From IMG/VR virus record IMGVR_UViG_3300027782_000120, positions 1-51,765 of that record: a DNA stretch of 51,765 nucleotides; one strand, 5' to 3'. A program made the translations under genes and the position numbers. Position 1 is the first letter of the stretch. The number at the start of each line of letters is the position of its first letter. This document shows positions 2,821-43,024 of this stretch, in pieces. This DNA comes from a virus. A model generated the notes under the pieces. It searched no databases. It saw nothing but the letters and a program-made list of their open reading frames with translations, and was not told where the DNA came from.

Positions 2821-3429
2821 ATGTATGAAAACATCTTTAGTCTTTTCCCAACAGCTTTGTATACTGCGAATATAGATCGTAAATTTTCAAGTTCAGAACT
2901 TGATTTTGTAAAGACTCTTAGTCAAAACATTAACAATAATAAAGAAAATGTGTCTAGTAAAGACAAGTATGTTATTGAGAATGAACTCTTTCATTCTTTG
3001 AAAGATTTTTGTCAGCTTCATCTAAATCATTACTATAATGATGTGGTAAAGCCGAAAAACGATTCTACGATTAGGATTACCCAGTCTTGGTTGAATTTTT
3101 CACAAAAAGGTCAAGGCCATCATCAACATATTCATGCGAATAGTTATCTTAGTGGTGTGTTCTATATAAATACTAATCCTGATGATAATATTACCTTTCT
3201 TCGTGGTTATGATACTCCAATTGAAATTGGTTCTTCAGACTATAATCCATGGAATTCTCTTAGCTGGAGAGTACCAGTAGATACTGGTATGTTGTTAATT
3301 TTCCCATCATCGTTGTTACATTTTGTTCCACCAGTAACTGGTGATAAGACAAGAATCAGTTTGAGCTTTAATTCTTTTCCTGTTGGTGTTATTGGAAATG
3401 GAATAGATGCTACAGAGTTGTATATATAA
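2821..3429 (+). CDS. 2OG-Fe(II) oxygenase family protein
   Basis: The 202-residue product has the layout of the short phage and marine-bacterial 2OG-Fe(II) oxygenase family (2OG-FeII_Oxy_5 type). A histidine-rich iron-binding segment lies at His100-His105 within GQGHHQHIHAN. Strands of a double-stranded beta helix follow, and a second iron ligand His167 lies in the motif FPSSLLHFVPP. Arg178 in the RISLSFN strand would bind 2-oxoglutarate. Members hydroxylate proteins or small molecules; the substrate here is not visible. AAAGAGAT precedes the ATG. It sits between tRNA-Arg and tRNA-Gly. Confidence 0.82.
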   Translation: MYENIFSLFPTALYTANIDRKFSSSELDFVKTLSQNINNNKENVSSKDKYVIENELFHSLKDFCQLHLNHYYNDVVKPKNDSTIRITQSWLNFSQKGQGHHQHIHANSYLSGVFYINTNPDDNITFLRGYDTPIEIGSSDYNPWNSLSWRVPVDTGMLLIFPSSLLHFVPPVTGDKTRISLSFNSFPVGVIGNGIDATELYI

Positions 3430-3435
3430 AGTTAA

Positions 3436-3510
3436 GCGGGTATAGCTCAGTGGTAGAGCACTTCGTTGCCAACGAAGATGTCGTCGGTTCGACCCCGATT
3501 GCCCGCTCCA
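3436..3510 (+). tRNA. tRNA-Gly (GCC)
   Basis: The acceptor GCGGGTA/TGCCCGC is followed by discriminator T and CCA. The stem CTTCG/CGAAG closes loop TTGCCAA, giving anticodon GCC. Confidence 0.95.
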
Positions 3511-3528
3511 TTTTTGAAAAGATTTGCA

Positions 3529-4161
3529 ATGAATATTAGCTTCTTTCGTACTATTATTAGATTATACACAATGACTAGCATTGAAAGGATGAATTGTTTA
3601 TACAATTCTCTGGAATATATCAGAAAAAACCAAATCGATGGCGATTATGTTGAGTGTGGTGTTTACAAGGGTGGTAATATCCTAGGGATTCTAAAATATC
3701 TCGAACATCATAATTTAACTGCTGATGTTTGGGCGTATGATACATTTGCAGGTATGACAGCTCCAGAAGATATTGATGTAGATTATAATGGATCCTTGGC
3801 GATAAATATTCTTGATGAAGTAATGTGTTTATCTCCTCTAGAAGAATTTATCGAAACTATTTCAAGTTCGAATTACCCAAAAGAAAAAGTTAAAATTGTT
3901 GTAGGAGATATTTGTCAAACTTTACTAGATGTTGGAAATATTCCTGATAGGATAGCTCTGTTAAGGCTTGATACAGATTGGTATGCTTCTACAAAAATAG
4001 AACTAGAAGTTTTATGGGAAAAGTTAGTTCCTGGTGGTATTATGATTATCGATGATTATGGCCACTGGCAAGGTTGCAAGAAAGCAGTTGATGAATTTTT
4101 CGATGGTAAAAATCAAAAATTTTATCAAATCGATTATACCGGTATTTTGACGTTTAAATAA
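3529..4161 (+). CDS. TylF/MycF-like O-methyltransferase
   Basis: The 210-residue product matches the macrocin O-methyltransferase (TylF) family of SAM- and metal-dependent enzymes. The SAM-binding loop VECGVYKGG is at residues 41-49. The acidic metal-site segment LDTDWY is at 147-152, and DDYGHWQG is at 175-182. These enzymes methylate sugar or catechol hydroxyls. In this phage a role in tailoring a sugar on DNA or on the cell surface is plausible because glycosyltransferases and an epimerase are encoded nearby, but that is inference. The reading frame is open upstream into tRNA-Gly. I chose the ATG at 3529 because the upstream part overlaps the tRNA; 3571 is a possible alternative. Confidence 0.83.
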   Translation: MNISFFRTIIRLYTMTSIERMNCLYNSLEYIRKNQIDGDYVECGVYKGGNILGILKYLEHHNLTADVWAYDTFAGMTAPEDIDVDYNGSLAINILDEVMCLSPLEEFIETISSSNYPKEKVKIVVGDICQTLLDVGNIPDRIALLRLDTDWYASTKIELEVLWEKLVPGGIMIIDDYGHWQGCKKAVDEFFDGKNQKFYQIDYTGILTFK

Positions 4162-6151: not shown

Positions 6152-6185
6152 AAATATGAATTGATATGACAATTTGAGGTTTATT

Positions 6186-6938
6186 ATGGATAGATATTTC
6201 AATAATATTTTAGACAGACAGTATTATAACAAAGAAGGCTCGAGAAAGAAAAACGCTATTTACTGTCAGCAGATCGATCGATTTATTCTTGTCGACGATT
6301 ACGATTTTTGGATCACATTAAAATCAGCTCAGGTATTATCTTCTAAAATAGCAACAACTGTTTATCAGCTTCCGCATGATATTGGTGGTATGGACAATAA
6401 TAATTGCACGAGCTACAGTATCTTTGATAAGACAGCCTTCAAGAGAAGGAATGTTGCTGACATCATTCAAAATCAAACACCAACCCTCAAAAGGTTAAGA
6501 ACAGAGAATATCGTCAAGGCAGATGTTCCTGAAGACTACAAGCATGAAGAAGGTTTGGAGCAACTGAAAATTTTAAAAGACTATGTAAATTTCGTCAATA
6601 AAATAGTTTACGCAACAGAATTCGCCAATGCTAAAAACTCTTTGGATAATCGATTGATGGCTAATATGTTTTACTCGAAAGAGTGGAACAACACGATTTC
6701 TTCATATGAAGATAAAACATCTTCTGGCACAAGCTTGTTCAGCGATATCAACACCATACTTTATTTTGCTAGTGGCATCAAAGATGCTAAGAAGAAAATA
6801 AGAGCTGCATTCGAGAATGCATTTGATAACAAAACAGTTACATATGATCGTTCTGAAGCGTTTTATGATATGATAAATGAAGTCAACCCTTTCAAATATC
6901 GTGCGCCCACAAACCTTTTGAAAGCAAATAAAATATGA
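6186..6938 (+). CDS. protein of unknown function, first gene of the metabolic island
   Basis: The 250-residue product is soluble, rich in Asn, Asp, Lys and Tyr, and shows no motif I recognise. The ATG at 6186 is preferred because GAGGT at 6176-6180 precedes it by five bases. It overlaps the PP-loop gene by four bases (ATGA), so the two products are probably made together. Co-translation suggests a partner or substrate-recognition role for the PP-loop enzyme, which is inference. Confidence 0.75.
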   Translation: MDRYFNNILDRQYYNKEGSRKKNAIYCQQIDRFILVDDYDFWITLKSAQVLSSKIATTVYQLPHDIGGMDNNNCTSYSIFDKTAFKRRNVADIIQNQTPTLKRLRTENIVKADVPEDYKHEEGLEQLKILKDYVNFVNKIVYATEFANAKNSLDNRLMANMFYSKEWNNTISSYEDKTSSGTSLFSDINTILYFASGIKDAKKKIRAAFENAFDNKTVTYDRSEAFYDMINEVNPFKYRAPTNLLKANKI

Positions 6939-8236
6939 TAAACTCTAATCAGCTCCTATATTTTTCAGACATTAGACCAGCGCTCAAATTTTGGAATAGA
7001 GTGTACCCGAAGGTAGGTGCAGGTAGTAAATTTTACCTAGACATCGCCAAGAGGTTTAGACCTCATCGACTGGTATCTCGAAACGAAGGCGAGTGGAGCC
7101 AACCATGGAATCAGGTTGTCCCAGATAAATTTAAAATGCCTGTGTATAACCCTACGTTCAATAAAACTTTTGAAGAAGTTACAGATGAGCGAGCGTATGA
7201 AATAAAGCTTGGTATCCAAGCGGGCAAAAAATATGCTGTGATGTATTCGGGTGGTATGGATAGCACCCTCGTCGCCGTAGCTCTCATGCGAAACCTTACT
7301 CAGGAAGAATTGAAGTCTGTTGCTATTTGTGCATCGATGCATTCTATCATAGAAAATCCTAACTTCTGGCAAGATCATATCTACGGAAAATTTACGATTT
7401 TTGATTCTAACACTCATCTCTATGATGATTATATCAACATGGGGTACACGCCTATTACAGCTGACGAGGGCGACTGTATCTTTGGTACTTCTATTGGTTT
7501 GCAGCTGTATCATAATTATGATTATTTTGTTGGACTTCAAGATCCAGCTGTACAAGCCAATCTTCAAAAATTAAAGTACAAGATCTCAGATGGCGATGTG
7601 CATTATACTGCATACAAAGACATTATCATTCGGTATCTATCTCTAAACGATACTGAACATGGGTTAAATTTCGGTAGAATGCTCTATGAGAAATATCATC
7701 TGAATATCATTACGTCTTCAGTGCCAGTACATAGCTTCCATGACTTCTTTTGGTGGCTGATCTTCAACGTGAAATATTACAATTGCTCTATCCGTGGTGC
7801 TATCTATTTCAACAGCACCATTCCTGCCCAGCAATGTACAGACTCGATGGTTAATTGGTTTAATGGCGAGGGCTACCAGCATTGGAGTATGAATAATAAT
7901 AACAATGGATTGAAGATTCGAAATACTCTTGCAACCTACAAATATGTCCAGAGAAAATACATCTTTGAGTATGATAAGAATGAATGGTATTTTTGGTTTA
8001 AAACGAAACTAGAGTCTATGGCTAACCTGAATATTAAAGGTAAGAACCGTGGCATCACCGATTTGACACATAGCATTGTTGGTATGACAGATAAGTACGA
8101 ATATCTCTGCATTCCTGATCCTAAGAAGGACATCAACAATAATTCATACAAAGGTGTGTATCATTATGGTCCTGAAGTCGAATATTTTTTCGAAAATAGT
8201 CTAATGAACTACAAAGTAGATTGGATGGATGACTAA
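6935..8236 (+). CDS. PP-loop ATP pyrophosphatase, asparagine synthase-like
   Basis: The 433-residue protein carries the PP-loop signature SGGMDS at residues 105-110, in a strand reading AVMYSGGMDSTL. A second acidic loop, TADEGDCIFG, at about 175-184 resembles the GxDELFGG loop of asparagine synthetase. The N-terminal hundred residues lack a Cys2 glutaminase domain. The enzyme would adenylate a carboxyl or carbonyl group and transfer nitrogen or sulfur from another donor. It is translationally coupled to the unknown gene upstream. The substrate is unknown. Confidence 0.8.
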   Translation: MINSNQLLYFSDIRPALKFWNRVYPKVGAGSKFYLDIAKRFRPHRLVSRNEGEWSQPWNQVVPDKFKMPVYNPTFNKTFEEVTDERAYEIKLGIQAGKKYAVMYSGGMDSTLVAVALMRNLTQEELKSVAICASMHSIIENPNFWQDHIYGKFTIFDSNTHLYDDYINMGYTPITADEGDCIFGTSIGLQLYHNYDYFVGLQDPAVQANLQKLKYKISDGDVHYTAYKDIIIRYLSLNDTEHGLNFGRMLYEKYHLNIITSSVPVHSFHDFFWWLIFNVKYYNCSIRGAIYFNSTIPAQQCTDSMVNWFNGEGYQHWSMNNNNNGLKIRNTLATYKYVQRKYIFEYDKNEWYFWFKTKLESMANLNIKGKNRGITDLTHSIVGMTDKYEYLCIPDPKKDINNNSYKGVYHYGPEVEYFFENSLMNYKVDWMDD

Positions 8237-8296: not shown

Positions 8297-9241
8297 ATGA
8301 CGCAAAACATTCGTTGGGTTATCGCCCATGAGCCAGTAGACCTTTTCCTTAAGGTTGCTGATTCTTTCTCTAAGGAAGTAAATGAAAAGACTAACGGTGC
8401 TTTTAACATCGAAGTTCTTTCTCTTACTGACTATGCAACAAAGTACAATGGTGGCAAGAAGGTTACTAAGAACGATCTTATGAATCTTATCGACACTGGT
8501 GCTATCGAAATGAGTCATATCTATACTACTTGGCTCGCAGACTACAACAAGGATCTTCACGCTCTTGATCTTCCATTCCTTTTCACTGATCATGCGCATG
8601 CTGATCGTGTTCTCGAAGGCGATCTTGGCAAGTCCTTGCTTGCTGGTGTTTCTGACCAGTCAAACATCAAGGCAATGAGCTTCACTTACTCTGGCGGTTA
8701 TCGTATCGTTCCTGCAAACTTCGCAGCTGATACAGTTTCTGCATGGGAAGGTAAGACAGTTCGTACTTCACGTTCTCCAGTTGCTGTTGATACATTCAAG
8801 CTTCTTGGTGCAAATCCACGTGCTGACATTGAACTTGAAGAAATGAACGCTGCTGCTGACGCTGGTGTTATTGCTGCTGGCGAATCAACCTATGTTCGTG
8901 TGTTCCCACTCGAGCAGAATAAGAGCTTCGAAGTTGTTAACGACACAGCTCATAGCTTGTTCCTAACTTCAATCATCGTGAACCAGGATTTCTTCAAGCA
9001 GTTTGATGCTGCTACTCAGGAAATCTTTGCTGACGCTGCATTCAACGCTGCTCGTAAGGAGCGTCGTGAGTCTGTTGCTGACATTCCAAGCATTCTTGCT
9101 AAGTGCGAAGCTACTGGCGTTAAGGTTGTTAAGATGTCTGATGCTGAAGCAAGCAAGTTCAAGTCAATCACCTCAAAGGTGTATGACATGTACGCTGACT
9201 TCTTCACTCCAGGTCTTGTAGGTAAGCTACAGGCTGCTTAA
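8297..9241 (+). CDS. TRAP transporter DctP-like solute-binding protein without signal peptide
   Basis: The 314-residue product has the whole DctP layout. The first strand and helix end in VNEKTNGAFNIEV. Then come the segment DLPFLFTDHAHADRV near 91-105, the hinge strand YSGGYRIVP, and the carboxylate-binding segment GKTVRTSRSP at 152-161 with Arg156. The helix after LLGANP and the segment with ADAGVIAAGE correspond to the DctP ALQ.GVVDG motif. Normal family members are exported with a signal peptide; here the protein starts at mature residue one, so it should stay in the cytoplasm. GGAG precedes the ATG. No transporter membrane subunits are present. It converges on the BKACE operon. Confidence 0.85.
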   Translation: MTQNIRWVIAHEPVDLFLKVADSFSKEVNEKTNGAFNIEVLSLTDYATKYNGGKKVTKNDLMNLIDTGAIEMSHIYTTWLADYNKDLHALDLPFLFTDHAHADRVLEGDLGKSLLAGVSDQSNIKAMSFTYSGGYRIVPANFAADTVSAWEGKTVRTSRSPVAVDTFKLLGANPRADIELEEMNAAADAGVIAAGESTYVRVFPLEQNKSFEVVNDTAHSLFLTSIIVNQDFFKQFDAATQEIFADAAFNAARKERRESVADIPSILAKCEATGVKVVKMSDAEASKFKSITSKVYDMYADFFTPGLVGKLQAA

Positions 9242-9249
9242 TAAGAATC

Positions 9250-9274
9250 GGGCGGAGGAAACTCCGCCCTTTTT
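9250..9274. terminator. terminator between DctP-like and BKACE genes
   Basis: An eight-pair GC-rich stem, GGGCGGAG 9250-9257 with CTCCGCCC 9262-9269, has a GAAA tetraloop and is followed by five T. It terminates the plus-strand gene. The T tract touches the stop codon of the minus-strand gene. Confidence 0.92.
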
Positions 9275-10143
9275 CATTTGATGCTGAATATTTCTCTAGC
9301 TTCCGCAGTTGTAGCTATCGAGCCACCTAATTCCGTGATAATCCTAACAGCTTTCGCTACTAGCTCTGCATTTGATTTCGCTAGTACGCCTTTCGAAAGA
9401 TAGATATTATCTTCAAGCCCGACACGGACATGTCCCCCATACAATACACTTTGTGCTACTATTGGCATTTCCATAGCACCAATACCGAATGCACTAAACA
9501 CACTACCATGTGGCAGTAATCTACGAGCGTAATCTAATGTTTCTGGACTAGCTTCCCATCCCCACTTAACACCCATGGCAAACTGCCAAAGCGGAGGATC
9601 TTCGATTAAACCCTCATTGATTAGTTGGCGACCGATATGGTAATCGCCTGAATCGAAAATTTCCAACTCTGGCTTACAACCTACTTCTCTGACAGCTGTT
9701 ACCATTTCTCTTGCTACGTTAAGAGTATTGATGGTGATACCTCCAGGGCCACGATTCATCGTATTTAAATCTAGCGAACAGATGTTTGGTTTGAGAGCTA
9801 CAATGTGCTTGACACGCTGTTCTGCCATCTTCAAAAAAGATTTTTGATTGAAGAGGTTCTTCGCAGGTCCTGTAGATCCTGGACCTGTTGTTAAATTAAT
9901 TAGCAAGTCAGGACGTACAGCTTTGATTCGCTCAACAGTTTCTCGATATAGCTCTAGATCCATACTAGGTCCAGCGGTTTCAGGATCTCTAACATGAAGA
10001 TGAACGATAGACGCTCCTGCCTCAGCGGCTTCAATTGCAGAGGTAGCAATTTGTTCAGGAGTTATAGGTAGATAAGGAGTTTGCTCAAGCTTCGTCACAG
10101 CTCCAGTTATAGCACATGTGATTACTGTTTTCTGTTTAATCAT
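9274..10143 (-). CDS. beta-keto acid cleavage enzyme (BKACE, DUF849)
   Basis: The 289-residue product is a full-length member of the BKACE family, typified by 3-keto-5-aminohexanoate cleavage enzyme. It is a zinc TIM barrel that condenses a beta-keto acid with acetyl-CoA and cleaves it. Visible features are ITCAITGA at the first strand, the zinc ligands His48 and His50 in HLHVRDP, NLTTGPG near 83-89, SLDLNTMNRG near 123-131, and GLEDN with the third zinc ligand Glu244. Nothing is truncated. GGAGG precedes the ATG. The start overlaps the SDR gene by four bases. The substrate cannot be read from the sequence. Confidence 0.9.
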   Translation of the reverse strand: MIKQKTVITCAITGAVTKLEQTPYLPITPEQIATSAIEAAEAGASIVHLHVRDPETAGPSMDLELYRETVERIKAVRPDLLINLTTGPGSTGPAKNLFNQKSFLKMAEQRVKHIVALKPNICSLDLNTMNRGPGGITINTLNVAREMVTAVREVGCKPELEIFDSGDYHIGRQLINEGLIEDPPLWQFAMGVKWGWEASPETLDYARRLLPHGSVFSAFGIGAMEMPIVAQSVLYGGHVRVGLEDNIYLSKGVLAKSNAELVAKAVRIITELGGSIATTAEAREIFSIK

Positions 10144-10895
10144 AGTGTTTTTCCTCCATCAATAACAATACAGTTGCCTGTCATAAATCTCATAGTTGTA
10201 GCACAAGCTTCAATCGTGGAAGCTACATCATCAACAACGCCGATGCGCCCCAGTGGAGTTCCTTTGGCATATTTACTCAAGAAGTCAGCAGAGCGATTTT
10301 CTAGGAAGTTTGTATCGACAGCTCCAGGTGCAACAGATATTACTCTTACCTTTGGTGCTAGAGCCTTTGCTAAGTTCCTAGTCATAGAGTCAGTTGCTGC
10401 TTTCGAAGCAGCGTAGGCGATATTGCTTCCGCCTGATTTGACTCCAGCGATTGATGATATATTAACGATTAATCCATCATTGCTATCAATTAACATTGGA
10501 GCGAATGTACGAATCGTAGCAAACACACCACGAAGATTTACTTTCATTATCTGATCAAAAAAATCATCAGTCAAGGCATTTAAATTTTGATGTGGGATCG
10601 TTTTACTAAAACCTGCAGCGTTGACTAGTATGTCGCATCTATCATACCTTTGTTTGATAATTTCGTACGCCGAAATAAGAGATTCAGTGTTATCAATAGA
10701 AGCATAAACTGCTAAATGATTATTGCCCAACATATTCAGTTCGTTCTGAGCATTATCTAGATCTCTCCTGACAATTCCAACGATCGTAGCACCTCTAGCC
10801 GCCAAACGTTTTCCAATCGCCTTCCCCATACCTCCCATGTATCCTGTAATAACAACAACTTTACCGTTCAATGTTTCGAAAGGTTCGAAGCTCAT
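10140..10895 (-). CDS. short-chain dehydrogenase/reductase (SDR)
   Basis: The 251-residue classical SDR has the cofactor loop TGYMGGMG at 17-24, NAAG at 92-95, and the catalytic tetrad Asn120, Ser148, Tyr161 and Lys165 (YAASK). The end, GNCIVIDGG, is typical of FabG-like ketoreductases. Arg43-Arg44 after the second strand suggests NADP(H). It overlaps both neighbours by four bases and has its own GGGAG site. In this operon it would reduce or oxidise a keto or hydroxy group of the substrate handled by the ligase and BKACE. Confidence 0.9.
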   Translation of the reverse strand: MSFEPFETLNGKVVVITGYMGGMGKAIGKRLAARGATIVGIVRRDLDNAQNELNMLGNNHLAVYASIDNTESLISAYEIIKQRYDRCDILVNAAGFSKTIPHQNLNALTDDFFDQIMKVNLRGVFATIRTFAPMLIDSNDGLIVNISSIAGVKSGGSNIAYAASKAATDSMTRNLAKALAPKVRVISVAPGAVDTNFLENRSADFLSKYAKGTPLGRIGVVDDVASTIEACATTMRFMTGNCIVIDGGKTL

Positions 10896-12364
10896 ATAGT
10901 TTCTCCCATATAATAGTTAGCCAACGATTCTAATTCTAGCTTGTTTATCTTATTAGTCCCAGTCAATGGCATTTGATTAATGAACCAAACTCTTCTAGGG
11001 TACTGATAAGCTGGTGCATTTTTCATGACAAACTCTTGGACTTCTCTTTCTGTGACCTCAGAATATTCTTTCCTTACTACGAATGCATATGGTTTGGTGC
11101 CTTTGATTTCATCAGGCAACCCTACTACAGCGGCGGAAGCAATTCCAGGACATTTCTCGATAATTTCCTCAACTTCGCCTGGAAAGATATTTTCTCCACC
11201 ACTGACAAACATGTCATCAGCACGACCCATAAAGAAATAGAATCCATTTTCATCAACATAGAATTTATCTTTGGTATTGAAGAAACCATCTTCGGTTAAT
11301 GTTTTCTGATAGAGATCATGATTCTTATGATAGGTGGTGAGCATCGATGGACTTTTAATATGTAGTACATCGTCAATCAACTTATACTCGATACCTTTTC
11401 TTGGGTATCCTACACTCATTGGTGGCGTTTTCAAATTCGATCCTGGAGGAGCTTTACCAAACAGCCCTGGTCCTACTTCTGTTAAACCATATCTTAATAG
11501 GATCCTAGAGTTAGGGAATCTTTTCTTCGTTTGTTTATACAACTCTGGGCTTGTAGGAGCGGAAGCTAACACGATTTCGTTGATCGAATGAAAACGATAA
11601 TTCGGTGACAAAGATTTATGAGCTAATATCATAGCCATCATTGGCGGTACTAGGACTAAGAAATTAATGTCGTACTCTTGAATGATTTTAATGTACTGCT
11701 CGGCGTCGAAATTTGGCACTAACAGAATGGTAGTTTGACTCAGCAAATTTCTTTCAATATTGGAAAGACCATTCATATGATACAAAGGTGTAGAGATAAG
11801 AATCTTGCATCCTTTGTAGTTTTTGATCTGCCTCTGCATAATCCATCTTCTGCTATTGGTTTTTACAACAACTCCCTTCGGCTCTCCTGTCGATCCAGAG
11901 GTGTATAAGAAAAAAGCAGGGCGATCTTGATCATCAAAAGGCTTGACAAACGGCTCTGATGACATTATAATAGGTAATTGAGAAATTGATAATGACTGTG
12001 TCGATGTAGGTACTTTGTCGATAAACACATCATCATAGAAAACGAATTCAGTATCGCTGTGATCGATAATTTTCGATATCTGTTCTGCAGATAGCTTATG
12101 ATTAATCAGCACAGGCACGAGTCCTGATCTTCTAATCGCAAAATATATTACGATATAATCGAATGAATTGTTAGCTATGATAGCTATTCTGGTTTGTGGT
12201 TCAAAATTCTTTTTCAGAAGACCAGCGGTTACCTGATTAATTTTTTGATCAATATCATAATATGTGTATGATTTTGGCGAACCAGAATTAAAATCAATCA
12301 AAGCAATATTTTGATAGTTTGATTTTACGATTTGATCAGGATTGTTGGTGATGTCTTCAATCAT
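10892..12364 (-). CDS. AMP-forming acyl-CoA synthetase/ligase (ANL superfamily)
   Basis: The 490-residue product has all core ANL motifs. The phosphate loop YTSGSTGEPKG is at 154-164, YGLTE is at 292-296, Asp366 lies in FFNTKDKF, Arg381 lies in the hinge segment FMGRADDMFVSGGENI, and the C-terminal catalytic Lys472 lies in GTNKINK. It would adenylate a carboxylic acid and probably form the CoA thioester. It is the first gene of a three-gene minus-strand operon and overlaps the SDR gene by four bases. GAGGA precedes the ATG, and a minus-strand CTAAATA motif lies about 31 bases upstream. Confidence 0.9.
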   Translation of the reverse strand: MIEDITNNPDQIVKSNYQNIALIDFNSGSPKSYTYYDIDQKINQVTAGLLKKNFEPQTRIAIIANNSFDYIVIYFAIRRSGLVPVLINHKLSAEQISKIIDHSDTEFVFYDDVFIDKVPTSTQSLSISQLPIIMSSEPFVKPFDDQDRPAFFLYTSGSTGEPKGVVVKTNSRRWIMQRQIKNYKGCKILISTPLYHMNGLSNIERNLLSQTTILLVPNFDAEQYIKIIQEYDINFLVLVPPMMAMILAHKSLSPNYRFHSINEIVLASAPTSPELYKQTKKRFPNSRILLRYGLTEVGPGLFGKAPPGSNLKTPPMSVGYPRKGIEYKLIDDVLHIKSPSMLTTYHKNHDLYQKTLTEDGFFNTKDKFYVDENGFYFFMGRADDMFVSGGENIFPGEVEEIIEKCPGIASAAVVGLPDEIKGTKPYAFVVRKEYSEVTEREVQEFVMKNAPAYQYPRRVWFINQMPLTGTNKINKLELESLANYYMGETI

Positions 12365-12395: not shown

Positions 12396-12402
12396 TATTT
12401 AG
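12396..12402 (-). promoter_or_regulatory. late-promoter-like CTAAATA motif, minus strand
   Basis: Read on the minus strand this is CTAAATA, 31 bases before the ATG of the ligase gene. It is back to back with a plus-strand copy at 12407-12413. Confidence 0.55.
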
Positions 12403-12413: not shown

Positions 12414-12456
12414 AGGATAGGCAAAGCCTTTAATATGATAACTGATGGAGACATAT

Positions 12457-12711
12457 ATGTTTAATTTTCTTTCTTCTAAATGGTCAGAGCAGCAGAAGCG
12501 TAGCATTTCTAAAGTTGTGTCTTGGCGTATCCTTGTGACGATCACCAATTTCGTTGGTGGCTGGTTGGCGTCAGGAAACCCATGGGTTGGTCTTGGTGTT
12601 GTTTCTTTCGCTCTCGTCGTCAACTCAATCCTTTATTGGTTTCACGAGCGTGCATGGAATCGTACTGATTGGGGTAAGCAAATTGTTCCACCTGAGGAAA
12701 CTCCTATCTAA
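12457..12711 (+). CDS. DUF2061 family membrane protein
   Basis: The 84-residue product matches DUF2061. A basic amphipathic start (KRSISKVVSWRI) leads into two transmembrane helices with the pattern VVSWRILVT, GGWLASG and NSILYWFHERAWNR. The function of the family is unknown. GGAG at 12447-12450 selects the ATG at 12457 rather than the one at 12445. Its stop codon overlaps the start of the epimerase gene (TAATG), so the two are coupled. Confidence 0.83.
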   Translation: MFNFLSSKWSEQQKRSISKVVSWRILVTITNFVGGWLASGNPWVGLGVVSFALVVNSILYWFHERAWNRTDWGKQIVPPEETPI

Positions 12712-13583
12712 TGAAAAAAGTTCTAGTAACTGGCGGATATGGATACGTCGGCTCACATACTATCGAAAAATTATGTCAGGCTGGACACATTGTAGATTCA
12801 TTTGATTCGAATCATTCGAAAAACGATATTTCCAAATACGTTCGTAAAAACATTATTGGAAATATCAGAATTGATAATTGCTTAGGCAGTTATGATGCTG
12901 TCGTTCATCTAGCTGCATTGCTCGATGTGAAGGAATCAGTTCATATTCCTTGGGAGTATGTTAAAACCAACATCATTGGTACGAAAAATGTGCTGAGGGC
13001 TACTTCTACAGATAATTTTATCTTTGCATCATCATGCGCTGCTTTCACACCAGAATTTTCTCCATATGGACAAACGAAGCTTATGGGCGAAAATATCGTG
13101 AGAGAGCATGCATCAAATTACACCATCTTCCGTATCTTCAATGTCGCTGGCAATAATGGGATATTCGATGAGATCGTCAGAGCTAGGCATTTGATTCAAG
13201 TTGCAGCAGAGGCGGCTGCTGGTATTATACCTCACATGCATCTGTATGGGACTGATTATAACACCAAAGATGGAACAGCCATGAGGGATTATATCCATGT
13301 TTCAGACTTGGCGAATGCTATCGCTTATGCTGTTGAGGTACCAAAAAATACGCCATTCGAGTGTGCAGGAACAGGTATCGGCTACAGCTGTCGTGAAGTC
13401 ATTGAAATGATGAAGTATGTTAGTGGAATGGAATTCGATGTTATCGAGGCAGAAGAGCGTAAGGGCGACCCACCATCATCGTTGATACCTAAGCGTATGG
13501 GTAATTCAGACTACGTCGATAACAGATATGATCTAGAAGACATGTGCTATGATGCATATCAAACAGTAAGGAAATACAAGTGA
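12711..13583 (+). CDS. NAD-dependent epimerase, GalE-like
   Basis: The 290-residue extended SDR has the NAD-binding motif GGYGYVGSH at 8-16, acidic residues Asp29 and Asp32 after the second strand, Ser107/Ser108 in FASSCAAF, and the catalytic Tyr119 and Lys123 (YGQTK). The segment RDYIHVSDLA is characteristic of UDP-glucose 4-epimerases. It is somewhat shorter than typical GalE (about 340 residues). It would make UDP-galactose or a related sugar nucleotide for the glycosyltransferases encoded here. Its stop overlaps the GTG start of the next gene. Confidence 0.87.
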   Translation: MKKVLVTGGYGYVGSHTIEKLCQAGHIVDSFDSNHSKNDISKYVRKNIIGNIRIDNCLGSYDAVVHLAALLDVKESVHIPWEYVKTNIIGTKNVLRATSTDNFIFASSCAAFTPEFSPYGQTKLMGENIVREHASNYTIFRIFNVAGNNGIFDEIVRARHLIQVAAEAAAGIIPHMHLYGTDYNTKDGTAMRDYIHVSDLANAIAYAVEVPKNTPFECAGTGIGYSCREVIEMMKYVSGMEFDVIEAEERKGDPPSSLIPKRMGNSDYVDNRYDLEDMCYDAYQTVRKYK

Positions 13584-14389
13584 ATCCTTTGATATGGACT
13601 ACAATTTATGGTGGTGATAACTATTTTAAAACTCTCCAAATTAGCTTGGGTTCTCTTGTAGATTATGGGCAATATCAAGGCGACTTGTGTTTGTTTTCTG
13701 ATAGATCTGTTGATGAAACATTAGAGTACGTGCCTGAATCGCTATGGTCACAAACAATAGTGCTTCCATTGGGTGATGATGATCCATCATATAAAACGAG
13801 ATGGTCTCTTGTTAAGTTTTTACCTGAATCATATGAGCCTATTTTACACATCGATACTGATGTTGTTTTCGATGCAACAATCGAGCCAATTCTTCATGAG
13901 CTTTTCATATCGAAGAAAATGTCTTTCTCCTCTGAAAGAATGTTGTATCCTTTCTTCCACCAACGTATCGGTGATCTAGAGGGAACTTGTGAGAATGCTG
14001 AATGGTTTGGTTTGAGTTTGTTTACTGCTGATATCTCACTCCATAATAAATGGATCCCCTGCATCAATGCTGGTATTTTTGGTGCTCCAAATTCTTCGAC
14101 GTTGGTGCAGGCTTCTGAATGCATTATCGATGTCATAAACAATTTGCCTACTGGATACTACGAGGAATTTTCTGACCAACCAGCTGTGAATTATGCAATG
14201 GCGAAGAATGCCCTCTTGGATGAATTTGTGTTGGATAGGTACATGTTCTTTGCTAATTATTCGCCCAATGAACATGAAATTAGAGTGGGGCTGGGTCGCC
14301 GTGGCTTCTGTCATTTCATATGGGCGAAAGGCGATCAAAAATATGTGCAGATGGAAACCTACCTAGAACGACTCAACGATATACTATAA
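13580..14389 (+). CDS. GT-A fold glycosyltransferase, GT8-like
   Basis: The 269-residue product has the hallmarks of GT8-type transferases. It starts with WTTIYGGDNYFKTL, has the metal-binding motif DTD at residues 92-94 in ILHIDTDVVFD, the acceptor-side segment CINAGIFGAPNS, and SDQPAVNYAM. It starts with GTG, overlapping the epimerase stop by four bases (GTGA). Coupling to a GalE-like gene suggests UDP-Gal or UDP-Glc as donor. The acceptor (modified DNA base, virion protein or host glycan) is not visible. Confidence 0.8.
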   Translation: MNPLIWTTIYGGDNYFKTLQISLGSLVDYGQYQGDLCLFSDRSVDETLEYVPESLWSQTIVLPLGDDDPSYKTRWSLVKFLPESYEPILHIDTDVVFDATIEPILHELFISKKMSFSSERMLYPFFHQRIGDLEGTCENAEWFGLSLFTADISLHNKWIPCINAGIFGAPNSSTLVQASECIIDVINNLPTGYYEEFSDQPAVNYAMAKNALLDEFVLDRYMFFANYSPNEHEIRVGLGRRGFCHFIWAKGDQKYVQMETYLERLNDIL

Positions 14390-19356: not shown

Positions 19357-19971
19357 ATGAAAGTTACCCTCGAACAATTATGCAATTTCTTTGAAGACAC
19401 AGACGATTTCGTTCTCAAGAATTTTGTTGATCCAATTAATCAAGTAATCGAAGATTTTGATATTAATACACCTCAGCGACTAGCAATGTTCCTTGCTCAA
19501 GTCGGTCATGAATCTGGTGGATTAACTAAGCTGCATGAAAATCTAAACTACAAAGCGGATAGACTTGCACAAATCTTCCCCAAATATTTCAAGGGAGTAG
19601 ATACAAGTGAATACGCTCACAATCCTGAAAGAATTGCTAATCTTGTCTATGCATCTCGCATGGGTAATGGCGCTGTTGAGTCTGGTGACGGTTATCGTTT
19701 CCGTGGGCGAGGGGCTATTCAATTAACGGGTCGCTCGAACTACACAGCATGCGGCGGTGATCTTGAAGTCGACTTGATCAATAATCCTGATTGGCTAGAA
19801 ACGCCAGAAGGCGCTCTCATGTCTGCTGCTTGGTTCTGGGATCAGCACGACCTCAATGACTGGGCAGACAAAGGCGATGTTCTTACGGTAACCAAGAAGA
19901 TCAATGGTGGTACTATCGGTCTTGATGAACGTAAAGAATTGTATGAAGAGGCTCTCAAAGTTTTTGCTTGA
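19357..19971 (+). CDS. endolysin, GH19 chitinase-like lysozyme
   Basis: The 204-residue product is a single-domain GH19 muramidase-like endolysin. Residues 44-61 read MFLAQVGHESGGLTKLHE, with Glu52 as general acid and Glu61 as probable second catalytic residue. YRFRGRGAIQLTGRSNY is the substrate-cleft segment. It has no signal peptide or anchor, so it needs a holin for access to the wall. It follows a late-type motif and a leader hairpin. The stop overlaps the upstream part of the next open frame. Confidence 0.93.
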   Translation: MKVTLEQLCNFFEDTDDFVLKNFVDPINQVIEDFDINTPQRLAMFLAQVGHESGGLTKLHENLNYKADRLAQIFPKYFKGVDTSEYAHNPERIANLVYASRMGNGAVESGDGYRFRGRGAIQLTGRSNYTACGGDLEVDLINNPDWLETPEGALMSAAWFWDQHDLNDWADKGDVLTVTKKINGGTIGLDERKELYEEALKVFA

Positions 19972-19982
19972 TAGGATATATT

Positions 19983-21473
19983 ATGAATATTGGTTATGCT
20001 GTTGTTGAACATTTGGACAAAAATCCAAATCAAGTCGTTTTTGAAAACGGTGAACATGTTCTTTATGGAAAACAATTTAGAAACAACATAGTTAGTTTTG
20101 CGCAAAAGATGAGAGAGCTAGGAGTAACACCTGACTCTCTCATTGCTGTTAAGATTGGCCATAATGATATTGACATCGCTCTGACATTAAACTATGCTAC
20201 CTGTTTGATTGGTTGCTCTTGGACTAGAGCAAATGTTTTTATCATGAACGAGTATCATGATAGAATAACACACATCTTTTACTCGACAAATGACTACGAA
20301 GACTCGCGAGCTACATTTATCGATGAAAGTTGGTATACTAGTAGTACAGAGTTTAACTTCGTAGATCATTCAAAACCAGACGATGTATGGATGGTAAATT
20401 ATTCATCTGGCACGACTGGTCTTCCAAAAACTATGAACATTACATATAAGAACTACTGGCACCGCTTGTTTGATTGTGCTAGAGAAGTTGATAATGCTGA
20501 TCGGTTAGCATTGCTTTATCATCCTACTAAGTCAACAGCAATGTATGAAGTTTCAAATGCTGTGTTCAATAATTTGCCAGTGATACTCAACTTCAAGTAT
20601 GAAGATCTTGATCATGAAAGAACTGTAAAGCTGAGTGGGTCACAACTCCAGCATGTTGGACTTATTGGAGATAGACCAGCGCCAGTGAAGCCGTTCAAAG
20701 CAATTGCTGATCCTGCTGGCGCCGCTCTGACACCTGAGAAGCTAAAGCTGTTCCTGTCTCACTTTACGATGTGCACTTCACCATATGGCTCAACTGAATG
20801 CGGAAGAACGTCACATGTTCTCATGTCAGAACCAGAGCAGTGGGATGGTTCTGTTGGTACTATTATGGTTTGTACTGAAGTTCAAATTGTAGATAAGGAT
20901 CATAATGAGCTACCGCCAAATACTGAAGGTATAATTCGAATTAAAACACCAAGAGCAATTAGTTGTTACACAAACTCAGAAGAAGCAACGACTAGATGTT
21001 TCTATGATGGATGGTTTTATCCCCTCGATCTAGGCAAAATGACAGAAGATGGCAGGTTGTTTATTACTGGTAGAATTGATAAGTCGTTTTTAAATATTGG
21101 TGGTATCAAAATTAATACAGCTGAAATTGAAAAGGCTATCATGACACTGCCGATTATTGATGACTGTTCTGTGTTCAAGTGTGAAGATTTCGCCGTTCAC
21201 CAACAACTCTCTGCTATGGTGATAATCAATGATTATGATAGGGTGAAATTTCTAGAAGATATTAATAAAACTGGTATTGAACCAACTAATGAATTCTTTT
21301 TCTACTTCTTGCTGGGCGGAGCGGTTAAAGATGTTTGTTTATATCACAACAATGACATGTCGAAGATGCCAGTCAATATCTACCTTGTTGATGAAATAAC
21401 ACTGAATGATAATGGAAAACCATCAAAGAATATTAGTTCGCTCGAACTAGAGCGATACAAGAAAATATCTTGA
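19983..21473 (+). CDS. AMP-binding enzyme (ANL superfamily), second copy
   Basis: The 496-residue product has the ANL core: YSSGTTGLPK near residues 136-145, YGSTE, a GWFYPLDLGKM motif, the hinge FITGRIDKSFLNIGGIKIN, and a late GKPSK segment that could supply the C-terminal lysine. It is divergent from the minus-strand ligase at 10892-12364, so it is not a recent duplicate. It would activate an acid as an acyl adenylate. It starts after a TAGGATAT site next to the endolysin. Its stop overlaps the -35 of the polymerase promoter. Confidence 0.85.
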   Translation: MNIGYAVVEHLDKNPNQVVFENGEHVLYGKQFRNNIVSFAQKMRELGVTPDSLIAVKIGHNDIDIALTLNYATCLIGCSWTRANVFIMNEYHDRITHIFYSTNDYEDSRATFIDESWYTSSTEFNFVDHSKPDDVWMVNYSSGTTGLPKTMNITYKNYWHRLFDCAREVDNADRLALLYHPTKSTAMYEVSNAVFNNLPVILNFKYEDLDHERTVKLSGSQLQHVGLIGDRPAPVKPFKAIADPAGAALTPEKLKLFLSHFTMCTSPYGSTECGRTSHVLMSEPEQWDGSVGTIMVCTEVQIVDKDHNELPPNTEGIIRIKTPRAISCYTNSEEATTRCFYDGWFYPLDLGKMTEDGRLFITGRIDKSFLNIGGIKINTAEIEKAIMTLPIIDDCSVFKCEDFAVHQQLSAMVIINDYDRVKFLEDINKTGIEPTNEFFFYFLLGGAVKDVCLYHNNDMSKMPVNIYLVDEITLNDNGKPSKNISSLELERYKKIS

Positions 21474-41383: not shown

Positions 41384-43024
41384 ATGGCAACTAAGATTCA
41401 ATTAAGAAGAGATACTGCTGCAAACTGGGAAACATCTAATCCAGTGTTGAGCCAAGGTGAACCAGGTCTTGCAATTGATACCAACACAGTTAAGTATGGC
41501 GATGGTGTAACAGATTGGAAGTCTCTTCCAGCTTCTACAGATTATGCTATGACCGCTTCTTCTGGCAATCAGTGGCAGTATCGTACAACTTCAGGTGGAA
41601 CAAGCTTTACTTACGTTATTGCTGGTAACATTCCCACACAGTTTACTGTGCCTATTGAGCAAGAAAATGCATCAACTGATACATTATTAATTGACGTAGC
41701 AACACATCCAACTATTACCTCTGTTGAACAAGCATTAATTAACTATAATAACGCTGGTAATGGACCTCGTCCATTTTTCAGCATTAACGATGGTTCTCCA
41801 TACTATGTAACTGGTTATTCATTGGCTGCTGGTATTGCAACAATAACTCTTGATGATACCTATACACTTAATGAAGGCGATCAAGTATTAATCAATGCTT
41901 GGACGAAGGGCACTCAGGGTATTTACCCACGTTACAGATCAACATATGGTCCAGGTGAAGCTACACAATATAATGTTTCTAATAATGGTTATCATTGGGG
42001 TCCAATTGCAGATGCAGCAAATACAAATACGGTAACAGTTGATTTTAGCGGCGAAAATTCAACCTTCATCGCCACTCTTCTAGCAAATCCTTACCGTAAT
42101 TATATTGTGTTTGATGAATTTACTACAACTGCATCAGCTGTAATTAAAACAGCTACACAAGTTGGCTCGTCAAATAATTATACATTAACATTTGATGGCC
42201 AACCAAAAGATCTTTTTGCAAAATCTCAAGTAACTCTTGATTGCAAATTGGCATATGATCAAACAGATAGTTATAACCTAATATTAAATTCAATAGCATA
42301 TCCACAGCTTGTTGATTTCCTTTATACATCCGGCGCTCAATATGCACCAGGAGAAGCATACTTTACAATTAATGATAGCGCAACTCAGTATTTTGTCCAA
42401 GGTTTCTGGCCACGTGGCGGCGGTACAGGAGTTACTCCTGGACTTGATTCTGATGGAAATTGGTCAATTCAAGTAGACGAATTTACTGCTACTGTTCAAG
42501 ATACTATCCATCTTCATTATACCAAGGCTGGTACATTTATCCGCATGGATTATTATCTTCCTGATGAATCATATTATACAGATCAAACTGAAAATAACAA
42601 CGTTTATCGTTGGTTCAGTTGGGAAGATGATCTTCCTTTCTATAAGGCAGCACACGGCAATGGCGTTCAAGGTGGATGGCTTGATTTCCACATTCAATGT
42701 TCTTGGCCAAAAACAAAAAGTAGCAATGCTGCTGATAATAAAACCGTATCTATATTTTTCAATCCCCGTGGCGAAAGTTACGGTGATGCATTGAACTCAT
42801 TAGATGCTACTACTTCATTTCAAGGTGATATTTTCAACGATACTGAATTTGGCTATAATGTTGATTTTAGGCCAATTTATGATCTTTACGAAGGCGGTAT
42901 TTTCTTCAAGGCTGATTATGGTGATGGCTATCCTGGCAGTATATCACAAGAAATTAAAGTTGATATTATTTGGAATGCAAGATTGTTCTACGGCGACGAT
43001 CCAACATATGAATATTGGCCATAA
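41384..43024 (+). CDS. tail-fibre-like structural protein with Mtd-type N terminus
   Basis: The 546-residue product starts with ATKIQLRRDTAANW and a following block with GEPGLAIDTNTVKYGDG. This is the small N-terminal domain found in Mtd-like and other phage receptor-binding proteins. The remaining sequence is beta-rich, with many aromatic residues and two similar blocks (YNNAGNGPRPFFSINDG and YTSGAQYAPGEAYFTINDS). Receptor binding is a likely role. CAGGAG precedes the ATG. Confidence 0.78.
   Translation: MATKIQLRRDTAANWETSNPVLSQGEPGLAIDTNTVKYGDGVTDWKSLPASTDYAMTASSGNQWQYRTTSGGTSFTYVIAGNIPTQFTVPIEQENASTDTLLIDVATHPTITSVEQALINYNNAGNGPRPFFSINDGSPYYVTGYSLAAGIATITLDDTYTLNEGDQVLINAWTKGTQGIYPRYRSTYGPGEATQYNVSNNGYHWGPIADAANTNTVTVDFSGENSTFIATLLANPYRNYIVFDEFTTTASAVIKTATQVGSSNNYTLTFDGQPKDLFAKSQVTLDCKLAYDQTDSYNLILNSIAYPQLVDFLYTSGAQYAPGEAYFTINDSATQYFVQGFWPRGGGTGVTPGLDSDGNWSIQVDEFTATVQDTIHLHYTKAGTFIRMDYYLPDESYYTDQTENNNVYRWFSWEDDLPFYKAAHGNGVQGGWLDFHIQCSWPKTKSSNAADNKTVSIFFNPRGESYGDALNSLDATTSFQGDIFNDTEFGYNVDFRPIYDLYEGGIFFKADYGDGYPGSISQEIKVDIIWNARLFYGDDPTYEYWP

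Follow-up and report, generated by a model that had tools for sequence, protein, structure and literature searches.

A three-gene phage operon joining a DUF849-family enzyme to an acyl-adenylating ligase and a dehydrogenase as a candidate beta-keto acid pathway

Introduction

Enzymes of the DUF849 family are commonly called beta-keto acid cleavage enzymes (BKACE). Their subgroups are reported to differ in the charge of the substrate, and some to show no cleavage (PMC4922564). Canonical BKACEs carry a tyrosine where BsfD, the family member of the flavophos pathway, has Phe166; BsfD is reported to acetylate and decarboxylate its substrate without cleaving it (PMC12871164). Here we describe a phage operon that combines a DUF849/BKACE-family enzyme with an acyl-adenylating ligase of the ANL superfamily and a short-chain dehydrogenase/reductase (SDR). 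It occupies positions 9274–12364 of the IMG/VR virus record IMGVR_UViG_3300027782_000120, which we analysed over its full 51,765 bases (hereafter the window).

Phages are known to carry auxiliary metabolic genes (AMGs), among them FabG-like dehydrogenases. Metabolic genes in phages commonly occur as lone copies resembling host genes, and the case for their purpose rests on annotation. The operon described here is a three-step set whose members have moved, fused and diversified together across many phage lineages and which has a phage-specific active-site change, so that selection on the pathway is hard to deny. Searches of the open PubMed Central literature gave no report of BKACE in phages.

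Results

The window is a contig of a T4-like phage, with a T4-type DNA polymerase (closest to those of Synechococcus phages, at about 50%), UvsX, a tail-type gene and 26 tRNA genes. The operon lies on its minus strand in the order ligase (10892..12364, 490 residues), SDR (10140..10895, 251 residues) and DUF849 zinc TIM-barrel enzyme (9274..10143, 289 residues). All three open reading frames start with ATG, each neighbouring pair overlaps by four bases, and the flanking genes, encoding a DctP-like protein (8297–9241) and a DUF2061 membrane protein (12445–12711), run on the plus strand. These coordinates agree with the original prediction, made from the letters of the window, of one minus-strand operon of three intact enzymes set against its neighbours. 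The enzyme identities proposed there were borne out by Pfam matches above gathering score and near full length. The DUF849 enzyme matches PF05853 with 318.8 bits against a cut-off of 24.8 (3.9e-95; residues 5–287, profile positions 1–273 of 274), the SDR matches adh_short (PF00106, 7.8e-46), and the ligase has both the AMP-binding domain (PF00501, 1.9e-54) and AMP-binding_C (PF13193, 1.2e-18).

Motifs of the ligase and the SDR are intact. The ligase contains TSGSTGEPKG, which we take to be the phosphate-binding loop, and Lys472, presumably the C-terminal lysine of the superfamily, is invariant in 11 aligned rows. Among the best 25 of 105 NCBIfam families, no named acyl-CoA ligase equivalog scored above its cut-off (best 269.1 against 476). 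A second, very divergent AMP-binding protein is encoded outside the cassette at 19968–21473 (PF00501, 6.7e-21; long tree branch). The SDR has the glycine motif of the classical SDRs, and their catalytic Ser148, Tyr161 and Lys165 are present in all 28 viral SDRs that adjoin a BKACE gene. Val42-Arg43 of the window SDR is an NADP-type motif, which suggests NADP(H) as the cofactor. We rejected a phage-specific cofactor switch: only 5 of 46 adjacent bacterial SDRs have the NAD-type aspartate, so the cofactor type is no novelty of the phages, most bacterial homologues also being without that residue.

BKACE genes are unusual in phages, as had been proposed: the enzyme has no PHROG match, and tblastn gave no match in 50,697 phage records. 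Yet 37 further IMG/VR records carry one, 35 found in two scans and two (L278, L279) in a family search, which with the window makes 38. The co-occurrence of the three genes that the original prediction had singled out as a check was found repeatedly. Contiguous ligase, SDR and BKACE genes in the same order are present in 23 of the 38 records (20 of 35, plus the window, L278 and L279), a count that spans contigs of unequal length, two of which (L002, L115) are cut at the cassette. After related records were collapsed into groups the trio stands in 13 of 24, or 15 of 26 with L278 and L279 included. In L005–L007 the ligase and SDR are fused.

The remaining records show how the set varies. Six of 35 have SDR and BKACE genes with no cassette ligase adjoining: L002 is cut, L094 and L116 have the ligase elsewhere in the record, L096 has none, and in L106 and L107 another AMP-binding protein lies upstream of the pair, a pattern to be expected if activation were required but could be supplied by a different enzyme. 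In nine of 35 no SDR adjoins the BKACE gene (L012, L095, L104, L109–L113, L115). Of 30 BKACE records, 20 contain the cassette ligase and two more a weak, divergent match to it; these 30 of the 38 are those left after setting aside near-copies and short fragments (G005, G006, G008, G009, G010, G012, G021, G030). The cassette ligase was found in none of 45 related phage records that bear the DctP or PP-loop genes described below and lack BKACE. The genes are metabolic, of bacterial kinship, and accessory within their phage group, as in other phage AMG cassettes.

To place the operon we compared it with 80 bacterial loci (L014–L093), the best of 589 homologues, in quick trees with support by SH-aLRT only. 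A branch with support of 100 separates the full set of 36 phage BKACE rows from the 80 bacterial relatives. The viral SDRs form one clade (30 rows, support 94, with a warning of long branches), as do the cassette ligases (24 rows, support 97, in a tree limited on the bacterial side to the best rows of 16 genomes). In the closest pair, L278 and L279, the ratio of nonsynonymous to synonymous change (dN/dS) is 0.03 for BKACE, 0.07 for the SDR and 0.09 for part of the ligase, which shows purifying selection on all three genes.

These data bear on whether the operon is passive cargo, either taken up recently from a host or a neutral piece of host DNA. It is a discrete insertion missing from the closest relative, as such cargo would be. 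The separate phage clades in three trees, the low dN/dS, the gene order kept in 23 of 38 records, the GC content of the three genes (0.394, equal to the 0.394 of the phage core) and a best BKACE identity of about 62–63% among the 80 bacterial loci kept already contradict this explanation, which we consider very improbable. The original prediction had named disrupted catalytic residues in relatives, or absence from related phages together with a near-identical host locus, as signs that would speak against it; instead the active sites are kept in relatives, related phages carry the operon, and none of the host loci compared is nearly identical to it. By these comparisons the operon has a long history of evolution within phages and is not a recent capture from a host.

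The site of insertion can be read from L117, the closest relative found (173 kb; DctP 92% identical). No BKACE and no cassette ligase occur anywhere in that record, and DUF2061 (12445..12711, plus strand, the right flank in the window) follows DctP after 58 bases, an empty site. There the terminator hairpin of DctP passes directly into the DUF2061 leader; in the window that leader picks up again just past the cassette. In L117 a match to the window gene at 13580–14389 lies directly after DUF2061. The intervening GalE-like epimerase gene (12711–13583) is also absent from L117, a second local insertion. Between the convergent stops of DctP and BKACE stands an 8-pair GC-rich hairpin with a T tail (9250..9269), which is a terminator and perhaps usable from both sides. 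Like hairpins, read by eye, lie 3' of BKACE in L005, L008, L098, L094, L116 and L109/L113.

Upstream of the ligase, TAAATA (minus strand, 12396..12401, in the context TCTAAATA) starts 37 bases ahead of the start codon. This hexamer is the core of T4-type late promoters. It occurs at most 80 bases upstream in eight of nine cassettes that run opposite to their neighbours (shuffle mean 1.2, none of 2000 shuffles as high) and in none of the five that lie on the neighbours' strand (L099, L100, L103, L104, L105). It also precedes several other window genes, including the tail-type gene at 41384. Over the whole genome ATAAATA is not in excess (15 found, 18.2 expected); only its placement before the cassette stands out. 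We infer a late-promoter-like element and late expression of the operon.

After the frameshifted L013 and the cut L115 were dropped, the zinc ligands His48, His50 and Glu244 of the DUF849 enzyme were found in the window enzyme and in all 35 viral rows, which also keep the catalytic positions. Residue 91 separates phage from bacterial enzymes: it is threonine in the window and arginine in only one of 35 viral rows (L012), as against 77 of the 80 bacterial rows. Since Arg91 has been dropped in the phages, the substrate is probably one without an acidic tail or distal acid group.

One could suppose that the product is unimportant and that the operon is a depletion device, draining host acetyl-coenzyme A (acetyl-CoA), CoA or NADP(H), or removing a toxic or defence-linked acid. 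By established chemistry all three enzyme families use central cofactors, and the operon is spread sporadically, like cargo (BKACE in 5 of 50 relatives), beside a leaderless carboxylate-binding protein. The change at residue 91, which suggests tuning to a substrate and not a general drain, speaks against this explanation, as does the fact that neither a defence gene nor a recognized signal was noticed alongside the operon, although no PADLOC search was made. We judge it improbable.

The bacterial sister of the phage set is a two-gene pair: an adjoining SDR on the same strand is present in 46 of the 80 loci, mostly in Burkholderiales. The pair of L018 is flanked by genes resembling catechol 1,2-dioxygenase, a zinc-type quinone reductase, TctC and an FAD-hydroxylase, and therefore appears to belong to catabolism, namely the degradation of aromatic compounds, whose ring-opened products are diacids.

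Discussion

Altogether these results lead us to favor, tentatively and at somewhat less than an even chance, a model in which the locus is a self-contained auxiliary metabolic operon that draws on host acetyl-CoA for the conversion of a small 3-hydroxy or 3-oxo acid without an acidic far end. In this model oxidation of a 3-hydroxy acid by the SDR would yield the 3-oxo acid, which the DUF849 enzyme would combine with acetyl-CoA, giving, if it acts as a canonical BKACE, an acyl-CoA two carbons shorter and acetoacetate. The ligase would use ATP to convert a free acid, most simply the acetoacetate, into its CoA ester, from which a thiolase of the host would make acetyl-CoA. Infected cells would thereby gain additional acyl-CoA and acetyl-CoA at a late stage. 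As the ligase would rescue the free acid as a CoA ester, the set would be independent of host enzymes up to that ester. A breakdown route would also account for the constant company of the ligase and for the catabolic kinship of the pair. We infer which way the route runs, the substrate class, what the ligase does and the timing. Use of polyhydroxybutyrate (PHB) through 3-hydroxybutyrate was set aside, since BKACE would merely exchange acetoacetate with itself.

Several observations weigh against breakdown. The first concerns cleavage itself. With the position mapped via BsfD Phe166, the tyrosine of the canonical enzymes (CcaKce Tyr145, PdKce Tyr173) is replaced in the window enzyme by Phe163, and phenylalanine stands there in 34 of 35 viral rows (L012 has tyrosine) and in all 80 bacterial rows. 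The window enzyme also falls short of the NCBIfam equivalog cut-offs for Kce (254.7 against 382) and for 3-oxoadipate:acetyl-CoA acetyltransferase (NF053568; 179.1 against 350). The name BKACE is no proof of cleavage, because Phe163 is as in the non-cleaving BsfD, and for the phage protein, as read from its residues, cleavage of beta-keto acids is unproven. The NADP-type motif of the SDR fits reduction better than oxidation. Known acetoacetyl-CoA synthetases belong to another ANL subfamily, one of longer proteins. Some records have BKACE but no cassette ligase, namely those of L095, L096 and L109–L113 (L111 excepted from the search). TctC uptake proteins with leader peptides speak for breakdown, being enriched with BKACE (12 of 16 BKACE records of at least 50 kb, against 10 of 38 without BKACE; Fisher test, 0.002), but this statistic ignores shared descent, and the window has no TctC. 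The part of the original prediction that saw a three-gene metabolic route therefore stands as a coherent, intact and repeatedly kept cassette; the cleavage of a beta-keto acid that it included is unproven, given the BsfD-like Phe163.

The same residues invite a biosynthetic explanation. The ligase would activate an acid to its CoA ester, and the DUF849 enzyme, running in reverse (from acyl-CoA and acetoacetate) or in the manner of BsfD, would make a beta-diketone or a beta-keto acid of greater length. Its reduction by the SDR would give a hydroxy product that decorates a phage or host molecule or acts as an effector. Besides Phe163, the NADP-type motif and the late-promoter-like TAAATA, this scenario draws on the company that the operon keeps: AsnS-like PP-loop enzymes, radical SAM proteins, a fatty acid desaturase, GNAT proteins and methyltransferases in related phages, and the GalE-like gene two genes away in the window. 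These biosynthetic-looking neighbours differ among loci, however, and the cassette includes no acyltransferase or carrier protein; TctC uptake proteins accompany BKACE, and a bacterial sister pair sits within the catabolic operon of L018. We regard synthesis along these lines as a real possibility, if one to be held more loosely than the model set out above. A literature search gave no lead to the synthesis of surface-glycan acyl groups as in O-antigen clusters. In sum we favor acid breakdown over biosynthesis with modest confidence, a synthetic route being hardly less likely. Common to both is an operon for beta-keto acids that is under selection, specific to phages and linked to acetyl-CoA.

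Next to the insertion lies what is an older phage module, mostly found without the cassette: the conserved protein c4 (6174..6938, plus strand), directly upstream of the gene for a PP-loop enzyme of the asparagine synthetase/beta-lactam synthetase class (6935..8236, plus strand), and the leaderless TRAP-type solute-binding protein DctP (8297..9241, plus strand). The original prediction had recognized the DctP-like and PP-loop neighbours and joined them with the operon in one wider system. Both identities hold, DctP by Pfam (1.7e-37) and the PP-loop enzyme by its SGGMDS motif and fold, not by Pfam. Phages with BKACE nearly always have DctP: it is found in 18 of 35 BKACE records and in all 13 of those of at least 50 kb, and the two genes stand tail to tail in the window, L094, L116, L109 and L113. 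As parts of the operon, however, DctP and the PP-loop gene were rejected as a rule, since BKACE is present in only 5 of 50 records that have them and L117 has both without the cassette.

DctP-type proteins are widespread in phages (window and L117–L196), with 360 relatives among 392 pattern matches in viral contigs, of which the best 80 were kept. In isolate phages no close relative was found (best matches 21–31%), and the PP-loop gene was found in none. No hydrophobic leader was seen in five viral DctP sequences inspected, and there is no room for one in the window; in 72 of 79 viral loci the first strand begins 3–8 residues past the earliest start, in the other seven 11–24 residues past it. 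Having no leader, the phage protein should be cytosolic. At 10903–11866 of L109, and likewise in L110–L113, DctP is split at the lobe junction by two in-frame TAA codons and an immediate ATG, which perhaps yields a two-chain binding protein. A PP-loop gene follows DctP within 400 bases on the same strand in 44 of 90 loci. The PP-loop protein gave nothing convincing by sequence against the PDB; its model (pLDDT 90.7) matches asparagine synthetase/beta-lactam synthetase class folds with Z of 10–13. In many phages the c4 gene immediately precedes the PP-loop gene (alignment of 35 relatives). Its AlphaFold model (pLDDT 86) has no PDB match at E < 0.001 and otherwise matches two viral proteins of unknown function, so that c4 is possibly an unseen fold.

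Further genes in these regions were noted. The neighbourhoods of L094, L100, L105, L107 and L108 include radical SAM, fatty acid desaturase, GNAT, leadered TctC and further SGGxDS proteins. Within the tRNA array of the window are a 2OG-Fe(II) oxygenase and a TylF-type methyltransferase (2821–4158) and, by ARAGORN, a tRNA with a four-base anticodon (ttga; 2255–2328). It is conceivable, though we doubt it, that operon and module together form a small-molecule system without known counterpart, in which a phage-specific acid, acyl-CoA or beta-diketone would be bound by cytosolic DctP and conjugated by the AsnS-like enzyme. The module itself, with its cytosolic TRAP-type carboxylate-binding protein, AsnS-like ligase and apparently unseen-fold protein, is widespread in phages and unstudied there. 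The operon, in turn, is a small and easily expressed test set of three probably soluble enzymes.

How the operon relates to described systems can be stated for each of its relatives. With canonical Kce/BKACE enzymes (PDB 2Y7D-G, 8RIP) it shares the family and the zinc ligands; it differs in having Phe163 where tyrosine is reported and in scoring under their equivalog cut-offs. BsfD (PDB 9ZSC) is the best PDB sequence match (274 bits), with the same zinc ligands and a phenylalanine at the canonical tyrosine position; yet BsfD has Arg91 near the phosphonate and belongs to a phosphonate gene cluster (PMC12871164), whereas the phage enzyme has Thr91. The Burkholderiales pair (Limnohabitans, Variovorax, Cupriavidus) likewise has the SDR directly upstream of BKACE on the same strand, but its proteins are at most 56% (SDR) and 62–63% (BKACE) identical to those of the window among the 80 bacterial loci kept, none of which has an adjoining ANL gene and 77 of which have Arg91. 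The window SDR resembles known phage FabG-like AMGs (PHROG 3142, 3.4e-43), whereas BKACE has neither a PHROG nor a record in a phage isolate. Among phage metabolic cassettes, the beta-keto acid trio opens the exchange between beta-keto acids and acetyl-CoA as a target of phage metabolism and points to an undescribed way in which phages may reshape the small-acid metabolism of their hosts.

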